Origin: Sulfurifustis variabilis
GTDB lineage: Bacteria > Pseudomonadota > Gammaproteobacteria > Acidiferrobacterales > Sulfurifustaceae
Direction of reading: 5' to 3'
Length of the DNA stretch: 64,000 nt
Assembly (NCBI RefSeq): GCF_002355415.1
Contig: NZ_AP014936.1
Span: 1,240,001-1,304,000, forward strand
In this document: positions 5,635 through 42,280 of the stretch, piece after piece
Layout of the letters: each line of letters opens with the position of its first letter
Position numbering within the stretch: the stretch's first letter is position 1
The notes under the pieces: generated by a model
Told to the model about the DNA's origin: nothing
The model's database searches: none
The model's input: the letters and a program-made list of their open reading frames with translations, nothing else
Translations under genes and position numbers: made by a program

Positions 5635-7155
<1,521 letters not shown>

Positions 7156-38124: not shown

Positions 38125-38586
38125 TTAGCCGTTCGCGGCCTTGGCGTACTTCGCCTTGGCATCCCGGGCGGCCTTGGCCTCCGCCGCGGAATACGCCTTG
38201 CCCGACCACAGCATGGTGTAGGCCAGCTCCTCGTTGCCGTTCTCGCAGAGCTCGAGTACCTGCTTGAAGAGCGGCTGGAAGGTGTCGCTGCGGTGCGAGG
38301 CCTCGTGCTCCTCGAAGCTCCGCCAGAAGGTGACGATCAGGGCCTCCTTGTCCTTGAGCGGGCTCTGTACCGCCTGCCCGACGGTCGACCCTTCGTTGGA
38401 GATGTTGCCGCTGTTCAGCGCGACGAAGCCGCCGATGAAGCCCGTGTCCGAGTGGTACGTCTTGACGTTCTCGCAAAGGACGGCGACGCGCTCCTGGAGA
38501 TCGTCCACCGTGTACTCGGGCCGCAGGATCACGCGGTTGATCGTCACGATGCCATCGCTGGGAAAACCGGGGATTAGGGTGCTCAT
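38125..38586 (-). CDS. Dimeric alpha/beta-barrel protein resembling sulfur oxygenase reductase core
   Basis: A 153-residue protein. Cys38 (VLCENV) precedes [12 protein letters not shown]. The segment [18 protein letters not shown] holds an HEXXH-spaced pair (His94, His98), and Glu119/Glu120 follow. In sulfur oxygenase reductases the active-site Cys, two His and Glu have similar order and spacing (C31, H86, H90, E114). The ordinary antibiotic-monooxygenase-like fold is the conservative call. Length is about half of a true SOR. The C-terminus is Lys/Ala-rich ([20 protein letters not shown]). The start follows GGAG. Confidence 0.6.
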
Positions 38587-38781
38587 GGATGCCTCCGCGT
38601 CTAAGTCGCTGTTTCGATAAATCCCTTAAGTTCGAAGGGGATAGTGCATTAGTAAAAAATTATATGCTCATAGAATGAGAACACAATACCCGACTGCACG
38701 AATCAGGTATATGGGTCCGTTAGAAGGGGTTTAAAGCAAGAGCCGGGCCAAGCGGCTTTTACCCGGAAAGGCAGCGAGGGT
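38587..38781. other. AT-rich promoter region
   Basis: A 195-bp spacer between two minus-strand genes. It is much AT-richer than its surroundings (TAGTAAAAAATTATATGCTC). It most likely carries the promoter of the SOR-like gene and the terminator of the ATP-grasp gene (AGCCGGGCCAAGCGGCTTTT region). No ORF is seen. Confidence 0.45.
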
Positions 38782-39807
38782 TCATTCCGGCTCGGCGAGC
38801 CGCTGACTGGCGAGACCCAGGCCGAGGATGCGCTGGATGAGCTGTTCGTACGTCATCCCGGCCCGGATGGCGGACTCGGCGCACTCGTCGTCGGTCGCGA
38901 TCGCCGGGTTCGGGTTGGCCTCGATGATGTAGATGCGGTCTTCGGCGGTGAGCCGGAGGTCGAACCGCGCATAGCCGGTCAGGTCGAGGATCCGGTAGGC
39001 GCGCTTGCAGAGCCGGGCGATGCGTTCGGTCATGCCGTTCGGCAGGTTCCGCGCGAACTGGTAGCCGATACCCCATCGGGCACGGTACTCGTCGTCCCAC
39101 TTCACCTTATACGTCGCCATGCGCGGCCCGTCGGCGACCTTGTCGAACACGAGCTCGCGGATGGGCAGCACCTCGAGACGCGCGTTGCCGAGGACGGTGA
39201 CGTAAAGCTCCCGCCCGTCGATGTACTGTTCGGCGATCACCGCGCCGCGCGTGCGCTGGTGCAGCAGGTGCACCCGCTCCTTGAGCTGCGCCTCGTTCTC
39301 GACGTAGGAGGCCTGCGCGATCCCGACCGACCCTTCCTCGATCGCCGATTTGACGATCATGGGGAAGGGCAGCCGCGGCAGTCGGCCGAGCTTGCGGTTC
39401 GGCGGGAACTCCATGAATTCCGGCACCGCGATCCGGTGGTAGGACAGCAGCTTCTTCGAGAGCCCCTTGTCGCGACCGAGCAGAAGCCCGCGCGGGTTGC
39501 AGCCGGTATAGGGCAGGTTGAGCATCTCGAGGTAGCTCACGACGTAGTAATCGAGCGCGCTGTTGCCGGCGAAGTCCTCCAGCAGGTTGAAGGCGATGTG
39601 CGGCTTCCACTCCTCGACCGTCTTGCGGATCGGCGCGAGATCGTCATACACGCCGACCACCTGCACCTCGTGCCCGAGCGCGAGCAGCGCCTGCTTCACG
39701 TCGAACTCGGTGCGGTACTTGGCGATGCGGGGATCGTTGCGGGCCTTGAGATCGTCCGGCGGCACCAGCGTGTAGTGCACCAGCATCAGCACGCGCAGCT
39801 TTTTCAT
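38782..39807 (-). CDS. ATP-grasp enzyme, D-Ala-D-Ala ligase-like
   Basis: A 341-residue ATP-grasp protein. The N-terminus (LRVLMLVHYTLVPPDDL) is Rossmann-like. ATP-site motifs include PFPMIVKSAIEEGSVGIAQA, AVIAEQYIDGRELYVTVLGN, and the Mg-binding RFDLRLTAEDRIYIIEANPN followed by PAIATDD. It forms carboxylate-amine bonds in its family. The substrate is unknown and true D-Ala ligase activity is unlikely. The ATG overlaps the stop of the metallopeptidase gene (ATGA), so the two are co-translated. Confidence 0.85.
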   Translation of the reverse strand: MKKLRVLMLVHYTLVPPDDLKARNDPRIAKYRTEFDVKQALLALGHEVQVVGVYDDLAPIRKTVEEWKPHIAFNLLEDFAGNSALDYYVVSYLEMLNLPYTGCNPRGLLLGRDKGLSKKLLSYHRIAVPEFMEFPPNRKLGRLPRLPFPMIVKSAIEEGSVGIAQASYVENEAQLKERVHLLHQRTRGAVIAEQYIDGRELYVTVLGNARLEVLPIRELVFDKVADGPRMATYKVKWDDEYRARWGIGYQFARNLPNGMTERIARLCKRAYRILDLTGYARFDLRLTAEDRIYIIEANPNPAIATDDECAESAIRAGMTYEQLIQRILGLGLASQRLAEPE

Positions 39808-41342
39808 AACGAGACCCGGAAGCCCCCCGTGTGCAGCTTGTTCATGACGATGGTGGTGAGGCAGGCCGAGACTTCCGGCCGCATCTCGCTCTCCTCCCGC
39901 GGCACGCGCAGCCTCAGCGCGTCGCAGCGCTCGATCATGGCCTTGAGCACCTCGTTGATGCGGTAATGGTATTCGGAGGTCCAGCGCGTGACCACGTCCA
40001 GGATCTCGCGGCGGTGCCGCCGCAGGTAGTGCGACGCGGCCTCCTTGTGCCTGTGCTCTTCGGCGTCGGAGAAGAGGCGCCGGAGATCCCGGTCGAGAAA
40101 TTCCGGCTGATCGCGTCCGTAGCGCTTTTGCTTGTCCGCGTAGTACGCGCGGAGCGTCATCGTGAGTGAGCGCAGCGGCAGGATCTCGTTGCGGTTGCGC
40201 AGGCGCGGACGCCGGCCGCGGATCTCGCGCATCAGGCGGTCGACGTACTCGAGCTTCTTGAGCGCGGGCCAGCCCTTGTAGCGTCGGCGCCAGTCGGAGC
40301 CGGGCTTGAGCCACACGGCGAACGTCTCCGCCCAGTCCTCGTGCGGGTGCGCCTGTGCGTACCAGTTCTCCAAATGGATCACGTAGCGCTTGCTGTACGG
40401 ACGCGGCAGATAGGTGTCGGGGTACTTGATGCTCGACCTGCCGAAGTGGCGCTGCCAGTCGCGCCGGCGGTTCAGCTGGTAGGCGTTGAGCAGCGCGTGC
40501 CCGGCCTCGTGTCGCAGGAGCATCAGGCATTCGGCTCGGCTGCCGCCGTCGATCGCCACCATCTGCTCGCGCTCGAGGCGTTTCAGGCGCGGATGCGCGA
40601 GGTAGAACGGAATGGCGATGCCCGGGACGCCGTCGGGGCTGAACCATTCGTCGGACAGCCAGAAGTGCGGCCGGAAGAACTCGAACTCGCGGCGCTTGAG
40701 CTCGCGGTAGAGCGCGCGGATGTGGCCGGCGAGCTCGGTGCCTTCGATCTTGAGCGGCAGATCGGCGATGCGGAGGTCGAAGAGCTTTTCGGTCGGCAGG
40801 TCGTACCACCGGCGGGGAGCGCGGCGGATCACCGTGCGGCTGCGAACCCGCCGACGGCGCGATGTTCTCTTTCTGATCTTCCTTGCGCGACCGCGTGCCG
40901 GCACCCGGAGGCGCCGCCGGCCCGATGTCTTCTGCCGTTTCCGGCGCTTCGCTTTTGTCTTCGAGCGCCCGCGCGCGCCGCGGGCGCGTACCGGGCGGCG
41001 CTTGCGCGACGTCTTCTTTCGAGTCCGGCGCCTGGTTTTTTTCTTCGGGCGGCGGCTTCGGAGACGCGAACGGGAGTGCCGCCTGCGCGATCTCTTTCGG
41101 GTCGTCCGCTTCTTTCCCTTCCGGAGACGCCGGGCCTTGCGAGCCGCCTGCTTCCGGGTGCGACTGCTCTTTCTCTTTGCGCGGCGGCCTCCGGTGCGTG
41201 CGCGGCGGCGATTCCGCGATGCGCTTTTCCGTGGCCGGCGCTTCGCTTTCCCCGCCGCGCGGCGGCGCGCGCCCCGAACCCCGGCCGGGCGGCGCTTGAG
41301 TGCGGATTTCTTTCGATTGCGGCGTTTTGTTTTTCTTTTCAC
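39804..41342 (-). CDS. Putative zinc metallopeptidase (Mx-type) with Arg/Lys-rich N-terminal extension
   Basis: A 512-residue protein from GTG 41340-41342, 17 bp after the TraB-like gene. Residues 1-178 are almost only Arg, Lys, Ser, Thr, Ala and Gly (RRKRQKTSGRRRLRVPARGR). This is a histone-like, probably disordered, polycation. The conserved domain starts at RRWYDLP. It has SDEWFSPDGVPGIAIPFYLA, the zinc motif HEAGH (278-282) and HPHEDWAETFAVWLKPGSDW with a likely third Glu ligand. It is translationally coupled to an ATP-grasp gene. The real start could be further in, which would shorten the extension. Confidence 0.75.
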   Translation of the reverse strand: MKRKTKRRNRKKSALKRRPAGVRGARRRAAGKAKRRPRKSASRNRRRARTGGRRAKRKSSRTRKQAARKARRLRKGKKRTTRKRSRRRHSRSRLRSRRPKKKTRRRTRKKTSRKRRPVRARGARGRSKTKAKRRKRQKTSGRRRLRVPARGRARKIRKRTSRRRRVRSRTVIRRAPRRWYDLPTEKLFDLRIADLPLKIEGTELAGHIRALYRELKRREFEFFRPHFWLSDEWFSPDGVPGIAIPFYLAHPRLKRLEREQMVAIDGGSRAECLMLLRHEAGHALLNAYQLNRRRDWQRHFGRSSIKYPDTYLPRPYSKRYVIHLENWYAQAHPHEDWAETFAVWLKPGSDWRRRYKGWPALKKLEYVDRLMREIRGRRPRLRNRNEILPLRSLTMTLRAYYADKQKRYGRDQPEFLDRDLRRLFSDAEEHRHKEAASHYLRRHRREILDVVTRWTSEYHYRINEVLKAMIERCDALRLRVPREESEMRPEVSACLTTIVMNKLHTGGFRVSL

Positions 41343-41359: not shown

Positions 41360-42280
41360 TCAGTAGACGGCGGTCAGCCGGTAGCCCCGGCGGGCGAGGA
41401 GGGCGAGCAGCCCGTCGGGGCCGGGAAGGTGCGCGGCGCCCACGGCGATGAAGGCGTTTCCTTCGGCGAGTCGCGCCTCCATGCGCTCGGCCATCCGGCG
41501 GTTGCGGTCGTCGAGCAGGCGCTGCATGAGGGTATTGTAAAGGCGGGCATCCTCGGGCCGATACTTCTCCACGGTCGCCATCAGCTGGCCCAGGTCTCGG
41601 GCGAGCCAGGCCCGCGTGAGCGCCTCGAGCTGGGCCTCGGCCTCCCGTTGGGCCTTGACGGTCTCGCGCAGCAGGGTGACCTGGTCCTCGGTCGCCAGCT
41701 CGTCGAAAACGGCGAGCTGTTCCTGCATGCTCTCCAGGCCGTGCACCGGCTTGCCCGCGAGGGTGGCCTGGAGCTGAAGGGACAGGTCGAGGAACATGCC
41801 GCCCCGGTTCGGCGGGGCGGACAGGGTCATCAGGACCACCCAGGGTTTCTGCTTCTCGAGCCCCTGCTCGGGCAGTCCGCGGGCCGCGAGGGCCTCGCGG
41901 ATCTCGCCGTAGAGCGCGTCGCCGGTGATCTGCCGCAGGGTCTGCCCTTCGCCGAGAAACATCGTCTCTGCCATGGCGACGAGCGCCGATCCGTCGGTCA
42001 CCATCTCCATGGTGAAGCTCCCGGAGCGGTCGAAGGCCTGTTTCACGGGCGCGGGCAGTGAGACGACCCGCGGGTCGCTGCTGTGGATGGTGCCGAAAAG
42101 GTGGCTCGGCGGTCGCCCTGGCGATTCGATGCGCCAGAGGAGGCCGCGCGTGTATCGGCTCCCGTCGTCGTGCGCCGCCACGGCGGGCGCGCTGTCCGCA
42201 AGAGCGGGAAAAGCGATCCACCCGGCGATCAGGGTCAGGACGATCAGCAGCGGGTGGGGCGATTTCGGTCTGGCGCGCAT
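41360..42280 (-). CDS. TraB/GumN family protein
   Basis: A 306-residue exported protein of the TraB/GumN (tiki-like) family, possible metal-dependent proteases. A signal peptide (LLIVLTLIAGWIAFPALADS) precedes LLWRIESPGRPPSHLFGTIH, with the first GX2H motif, and the late AFIAVGAAHLPGPDGLLALL with the second. The middle is helical. It is the first gene of a minus-strand group with the metallopeptidase and ATP-grasp gene 17 bp apart. Confidence 0.88.
   Translation of the reverse strand: MRARPKSPHPLLIVLTLIAGWIAFPALADSAPAVAAHDDGSRYTRGLLWRIESPGRPPSHLFGTIHSSDPRVVSLPAPVKQAFDRSGSFTMEMVTDGSALVAMAETMFLGEGQTLRQITGDALYGEIREALAARGLPEQGLEKQKPWVVLMTLSAPPNRGGMFLDLSLQLQATLAGKPVHGLESMQEQLAVFDELATEDQVTLLRETVKAQREAEAQLEALTRAWLARDLGQLMATVEKYRPEDARLYNTLMQRLLDDRNRRMAERMEARLAEGNAFIAVGAAHLPGPDGLLALLARRGYRLTAVY

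Follow-up and report, generated by a model that had tools for sequence, protein, structure and literature searches.

Known Ligase-Peptidase Systems

Ligase-plus-peptidase themes are known from (i) the N-acetylglutaminylglutamine (NAGGN) osmolyte system, which includes an M42 peptidase; (ii) glutathionylspermidine synthetase/amidase; and (iii) VanA/VanX. The present text deals with a further pair of this sort, formed by a Ddl-like ATP-grasp ligase and a zinc peptidase, which are encoded by two overlapping genes of Sulfurifustis variabilis (contig NZ_AP014936.1) and turn out to be kept together well beyond this genome. The stretch of DNA analysed, hereafter the window, comprises 64,000 nucleotides (positions 1,240,001 to 1,304,000 of the forward strand) and carries the pair at its positions 38,782 to 41,342.

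Three further systems come close. Cyanophycin synthetase CphA1 contains a ligase and a zinc peptidase that cooperate, its N-domain cutting the polymer into primers for the ligase sites (PMC9262961); CphA1, however, is a single fusion protein whose motif is inverted (HxxEH), whereas the pair consists of two proteins, the peptidase having HExxH. In the operon of Anbu, circularly permuted ATP-grasp, alpha-E and transglutaminase genes, a peptidase and an ATP-grasp enzyme are predicted to serve peptide synthesis (PMC5666114), but that operon has another type of ATP-grasp, another peptidase fold and more genes than the two found here, and PF14403 (CP_ATPgrasp_2) has no match in the S. variabilis genome. 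Branches 7 and 8 of the graspetide ATP-grasp enzymes are linked to peptidases, and the corresponding survey found no precursor gene for them (PMC8939145); the ligase of the pair differs in that it matches Ddl models best, and no graspetide model appears among the 25 of its 39 NCBIfam matches that were listed. In both enzyme families, and in having two genes only, the pair differs from the known ligase-peptidase themes. The literature matches listed contain no account of it, in agreement with the initial annotation, which had taken the function to be undescribed; an earlier mention in the amidoligase survey of Iyer et al. (2009) is possible.

The Gene Pair and Its Conservation

Both open reading frames (ORFs) lie on the minus strand at the positions first given for them: the ATP-grasp ORF, with an ATG start, at 38782-39807 and the peptidase ORF, with a GTG start, at 39804-41342. 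The core of the locus consists of the following features:

38782..39807, minus strand: Ddl-like ATP-grasp carboxylate-amine ligase of 341 amino acids (aa), from PF07478, an AlphaFold2 model with the Ddl fold and invariant ATP/Mg positions
39807..40826, minus strand: zinc peptidase domain of 340 aa with HEAGH (residues 106-110) and HPHEDWAE (160-167), from PF15887 (E=8e-8), a model and invariant residues
39804..39807, minus strand: overlap of the peptidase stop and the ligase start, four bases ATGA, read from the sequence; the -4 spacing recurs in homologous pairs

Homologues were searched with the peptidase alone as query and, in consequence, the ligase was not selected for. Two sources of loci were used: (i) a search of a genome collection, from which the best 80 of 90 confirmed peptidase relatives were taken; and (ii) a search of 299 genomes of the same phylum, in which 10 matched, namely the window itself, four short matches (two of them, in G086 and G138, being canonical PF15887 proteins) and five loci that were added to the 80. 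In 81 of the resulting 85 peptidase loci, the gene that directly follows on the same strand is the ligase. Three of the four remaining loci are cut short by a contig end: in L091 the contig ends inside the peptidase, and in L023 and L048 it ends 382 and 274 bases past it, which is too short for a decision, since loci with similar N-termini (L022 and L052) have spacings of 259 and 231. The fourth, L090, is an orphan.

Locus L090, whose peptidase (5716-6990) is the sole clear ligase-less one among the 85 loci, has a groEL-like gene upstream.

The spacing between the two genes was counted in the 70 pairs whose ligase alignment starts at residue 1. It is -4 in 50 of them, 123 in seven, 2 in four, 13 in three, and takes other values in six; since 50 of 70 homologous pairs have the -4 spacing, the 4-bp overlap, which had been correctly noted at its place in the window, goes beyond chance.

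The two genes also come and go together. Among 60 genomes of the genus of G035, searched with peptidase and ligase profiles, 29 have both genes and 31 have neither; in the 29, peptidase and ligase each score above 500 bits, in the same genomes and adjacent to each other, the weaker matches in the 60 genomes being short matches of the peptidase profile (22-39 bits) and other ligases of at most 165 bits. In the class to which the window belongs, the peptidase occurs in 16 of 369 genomes (E<=1e-20), 14 of which carry a ligase above 480 bits; in the other two (G390 and G654), the contig stops within 260 bases of the peptidase, in the direction in which the ligase is expected. The next-best ligase in any of the 369 genomes reaches 183 bits and, among the limited number of candidates scored in each of these genomes, no ligase of the module clade was found without the peptidase. 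Protein distances of peptidases and ligases are correlated over 75 pairs (r=0.84, the highest value in 2000 permutations being 0.23).

A tree of 75 peptidases covers ten phyla, as labelled in the sequence records, mostly of metagenome-assembled genomes, and Pseudomonadota occupy three separate parts of it, which suggests that the pair has moved between lineages as a unit. No match was found in the plasmid or phage collection. The persistence of the pair across ten phyla, amid changing surroundings, is a favourable sign that the pair has a biochemical function complete in itself. Its presence in 29 of 60 sampled species of one genus, and its absence from the rest, should make it possible to look for the product in comparisons of close relatives. 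The proposed coupling of an enzyme that breaks amide bonds with one that makes them is strongly supported by the 81 of 85 loci and by the joint presence and absence within genus and class, which also rule out a chance neighbourhood; lack of conserved co-occurrence in other genomes, the outcome named at the outset as speaking against the coupling, is not what the neighbourhood survey returned.

Genes Around the Pair

No third member of the module was recognised. Flanking ORFs of at least 80 aa were compared all-against-all across the 85 loci and, among the 25 largest families, none beyond the pair occurs in more than nine loci; those common to several loci resemble a generic ABC ATPase family or lineage-specific neighbours. 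In a second comparison (ten genomes from the genus, eight from the class; ORFs of at least 90 aa; the 14 largest families), only the pair is common to all, shadow ORFs within the pair aside. The initial annotation had advised looking for small peptides nearby; no conserved peptide gene was found among ORFs of those lengths and, as ORFs below 80 aa and below 90 aa, respectively, were not clustered, a very short precursor gene may have been missed. Calling a third operon gene by codon-usage scores proved too patchy (no downstream gene was called in 35 of 81 loci) and was not used.

The Ligase

The ligase ORF matches PF07478 (Dala_Dala_lig_C) with E=1.4e-29. Its AlphaFold2 model has a mean predicted local distance difference test score (pLDDT) of 90.2 and shows the Ddl fold (Z 32.4, root-mean-square deviation (rmsd) 2.7, 311 residues aligned to 1ehi_A). 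For residue comparison, 76 ligases were aligned (six short ones, L033, L034, L038, L054, L068 and L083, were left out) together with the canonical Ddl of the organism itself, through which the positions equivalent to those of DdlB were placed; DdlB numbering and residue roles are those that we assume to hold, the positions having been located through motifs. All 76 module ligases match PF07478, and 21 match RimK too.

Among the 76 ligases there is no variation at the positions equivalent to DdlB K97, K144, E187, K215, R255, D257, E270 and N272. Others have changed: the S281 position is E or D in 70 of 76 and the L282 position is D or E in all 76, the S150 position is A or G in 69, the Y216 position is W in 63, and the E15 position is not conserved. 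From this pattern we infer that the ATP chemistry has been kept and the amino acid sites changed. In DdlB, S281 and L282 are presumably the positions that bind the second D-Ala; as these, residues 307/308 of the ligase, are acidic here, the module ligase is probably not a D-Ala-D-Ala ligase, and its acceptor site has probably been altered towards something that shows no carboxylate at that place and may be cationic. The best NCBIfam Ddl model gives 124.8 bits, below its cut-off of 243. Furthermore, a canonical Ddl with the motif GMTGHSL is encoded separately in the genome, next to a reading frame that we take to be murB-like. The module ligase shares with Ddl the fold and the ATP/Mg residues, but differs from it in the changed D-Ala positions (two of them acidic), a separate clade, a peptidase partner and the additional presence of a canonical Ddl in the genome.

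In a tree of 23 sequences, the 18 module ligases included (chosen from the 76) form one clade, apart from Ddl, with support of 99/98. Beneath the module's own ligases, the class search gave tandem same-strand ligase matches in ten of 369 genomes. Two of these loci were read (L140, 5799-11557, in G368; L142, 4101-9786, in G706), and in both the tandem Ddl-like ATP-grasp ligases are flanked by a lysine 2,3-aminomutase gene and by a gene that fuses a histone-deacetylase-type domain to acetyltransferase domains. Given that the nearest ligases stand beside lysine 2,3-aminomutase, lysine-derived substrates are a reasonable guess for the module ligase. The aminomutase/tandem-ligase cluster itself may make a beta-lysine conjugate; the literature search found no description of it.

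The Peptidase

Seven residues (H106, E107, H110, H160, E163, D164 and E167) are invariant in the 84 aligned peptidases, L074 (split reading frame) and L091 (cut) having been left out of the alignment. The set fits, as expected, a zinc peptidase of the HExxH...E type, with the role of each residue assigned by analogy to known families. Every one of the 84 matches PF15887 at E<=0.01; additional Pfam matches among these relatives are PF15890 (seven) and PF04298 (one). For the window peptidase, PF15887 (Peptidase_Mx) is the sole Pfam match at E<=10: the whole ORF matches across 70 residues (E=1.6e-7), the score of 31.5-32.4 bits passes the gathering score of 27, and the match is partial, with residues 104-173 corresponding to model positions 90-164 of 236. 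Module peptidases resemble canonical PF15887 proteins in carrying the motifs HExxH and HPxED(W/F)AE, but the window match of 32 bits is partial and compares with 265-372 bits in canonical members.

Canonical PF15887 genes have connections of their own with ATP-grasp enzymes. In five of 21 genomes (G102, G050, G143, G028 and G095), the distance between them and a circularly permuted ATP-grasp gene is 1-5 kb, and such a gene occurs anywhere in the genome in 20 of the 21, versus 84 of 150 sampled genomes. Two canonical loci read gene by gene (L093 and L094; ORFs of at least 200 aa) have no recognisable ATP-grasp gene alongside and, hence, the link is restricted to the five genomes; it nevertheless indicates that this peptidase family has come together with ATP-grasp ligases on more than one occasion.

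The predicted model of the peptidase has a pLDDT of 87.8. A Foldseek search with it gave no match at E<=0.001, the best having E 0.17. In VIA, residues 27-205 align with the protease domain of anthrax lethal factor (4dv8; Z 10.4, rmsd 2.9, 132 residues aligned) and with a PPEP protease (9g3t_B; Z 8.5, rmsd 3.5, 131 residues aligned). This core, with Z of 8-10 over some 132 residues, suggests a resemblance, of moderate weight, of the modelled peptidase to the lethal-factor-type/PPEP fold, which says nothing about toxicity; the module peptidase differs from those enzymes in having no such Pfam match, in having a ligase partner, and in showing no export signal by eye (no signal-peptide predictor was applied).

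A search of solved structures with the peptidase profile returned weak matches (a naphthalenediimide binding protein, E 0.0045; 4l7a, E 0.083) that were not used.

Possible Functions of the Module

The interpretation that we tentatively prefer, as plausible but far from settled, builds on what can be read from the sequence, that is, overlapping genes, co-inheritance, catalytic residues kept and D-Ala site residues replaced. The pair would form a stand-alone module in which ligase and peptidase act on the same intracellular substrate, a peptide or a peptide-like molecule, with a cationic acceptor. The ligase would use ATP to turn a carboxylate into an acyl-phosphate and would then join it to a cationic amine, which could be lysine, beta-lysine, arginine, a polyamine or a basic peptide; the peptidase would either expose the carboxylate end for ligation or take the conjugate off again, and the pair would thereby set the level of the conjugate. 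In the window, the Arg/Lys-rich tail of the peptidase ORF would serve locally as an extra targeting element towards nucleic acid or some other polyanion. Should the product prove to be a new peptide conjugate, bacterial modifications of peptides or proteins would gain a new type; should it be a metabolite, the well-studied Ddl fold would gain a new ligase specificity. The initial annotation had proposed a system that matures or modifies a peptide, or the polycationic tail itself: the coupling of the enzymes, on which that proposal relied, is strongly supported, the tail and the neighbouring TraB/GumN gene fall outside the core, and tagging becomes one of several plausible readings.

Several points weigh against this preferred interpretation. 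The argument from the acidic acceptor site leans on an alignment to enzymes that are only 19-27% identical and on DdlB roles that we assume; the position of DdlB E180 is not conserved in place (Q in 34, E in 34), the residue just before it, E193, being an invariant Glu; and the module clade joins the second ligase of the tandem pairs at moderate support (91/86) and with long branches. L090 is a true orphan at its locus, where the peptidase has no adjoining ligase, ten of the 90 confirmed relatives lay outside the analysis, and the genus and class searches scored a limited number of candidates per genome, so that distant ligases may escape. Moreover, conservation of the pair is silent on whether the two enzymes oppose each other or act in succession.

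On this last matter, two narrower possibilities diverge. In a reversible amide-conjugation cycle, which we regard as unlikely, the ligase would add a lysine- or polyamine-like cation (possibly beta-lysine, to judge from its nearest relatives) to peptides or protein ends, and the peptidase would edit or remove it; if true, the cycle would amount to a writer and an eraser of a cationic peptide tag, reduced to two genes and present in about ten phyla. Somewhat less improbable is an order without reversal, in which the peptidase first cuts proteins or a peptide to a new C-terminus that the ligase then extends or caps. The fold neighbours of the peptidase are endopeptidases, as would suit such a cut, but these structural matches are of modest strength (E 0.17 at best in Foldseek) and the sequence offers nothing to tell capping from reversal. 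Primer making by the N-domain of CphA1 is comparable (PMC9262961), and the same order has been proposed for two other peptidase-linked ATP-grasp groups for which no precursor gene was found (PMC8939145).

The substrate could also be a small metabolite, a possible though doubtful alternative in which the ligase builds, from free amino acids, a di- or tripeptide-like compound (an osmolyte, a storage compound or a signal) that the peptidase is dedicated to hydrolysing. Ddl-fold enzymes usually link free amino acids, and the NAGGN system with its M42 peptidase offers a precedent; the association of the nearest ligases with lysine 2,3-aminomutase, acetyltransferase and deacetylase-type domains likewise suggests small lysine-derived compounds, and no gene for an acceptor protein is conserved nearby among the ORFs compared. 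Nevertheless, a peptidase of 340 residues with an endopeptidase-like core would be better matched to a longer peptide than to a dipeptide, and no further family is conserved beside the pair. That same absence of a third family counts against a cell wall function of the VanA/VanX kind, in which the ligase would make an altered D-Ala-D-X ending and the peptidase would destroy the normal dipeptide. The resemblance lies in an operon shared by a Ddl relative and a zinc peptidase, as in VanA/VanX, but the positions for the second D-Ala are acidic, the genome retains its canonical Ddl and the window peptidase matches PF15887 and no VanX-type (M15) model, all of which makes this the most improbable of the functions considered. 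Scarcely more credible is co-transcription of two housekeeping genes that have no common substrate and are neighbours by happenstance; L090, which retains the peptidase alone, would fit it, but across ten phyla the pair persists and the flanking genes change, and its presence and absence are joint within a genus. An anti-phage defence function was dropped, since the ligase, the peptidase and the TraB/GumN protein gave no match to PADLOC families (E<=0.01).

Local Features of the Window

Three further features surround the core in S. variabilis:

40827..41342, minus strand: clade-specific tail of 172 aa, rich in Arg and Lys, at the N-terminus of the peptidase ORF, from composition and ORF comparison
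41360..42280, minus strand: TraB/GumN family protein, upstream, from PF01963 (E=2.3e-66)
38686..38710, minus strand: weak terminator-like hairpin 3' of the ligase, from a consensus scan

The order of genes on the minus strand is TraB/GumN (PF01963 TraB_PrgY_gumN), then the peptidase ORF, then the ATP-grasp ORF, and perhaps TraB/GumN shares a transcript with the pair in the window. It does precede the pair there, as had been pointed out, but it is not a conserved partner: it adjoins the pair in only two of 85 loci (L014 and L018), some of which hold little upstream DNA, and it was ruled out as a third member of the module. The hairpin, a possible end of the operon, is weak, given that the region has four such hairpins against 2.4 expected in shuffled sequences. 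Further 3' of the ligase, an ORF of 153 aa (window 38125-38586) has matches to SOR and ABM models that are sub-threshold only.

Since the reading frame is still open 5' of GTG 41342, the exact start of the peptidase is a prediction; this GTG is the earliest plausible start past the TraB stop. Counted from it, the tail comprises 172 residues, of which 67 are Arg and 30 are Lys, with no Asp or Glu. A long tail occurs in three of 102 homologous ORFs (the window, L018 and L017; some genomes are counted twice), and a few relatives have short basic stubs at the peptidase N-terminus. The suggestion that the tail is the substrate does not hold in general, the long form being so rare, and both TraB/GumN and the Arg/Lys-rich tail are local add-ons outside the core. 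An origin of the tail by tandem repetition was discarded, as just one short 9-base array was found. As an acid-free basic extension on an enzyme, the tail (window 40827-41342) recalls bacterial histone-like tails.

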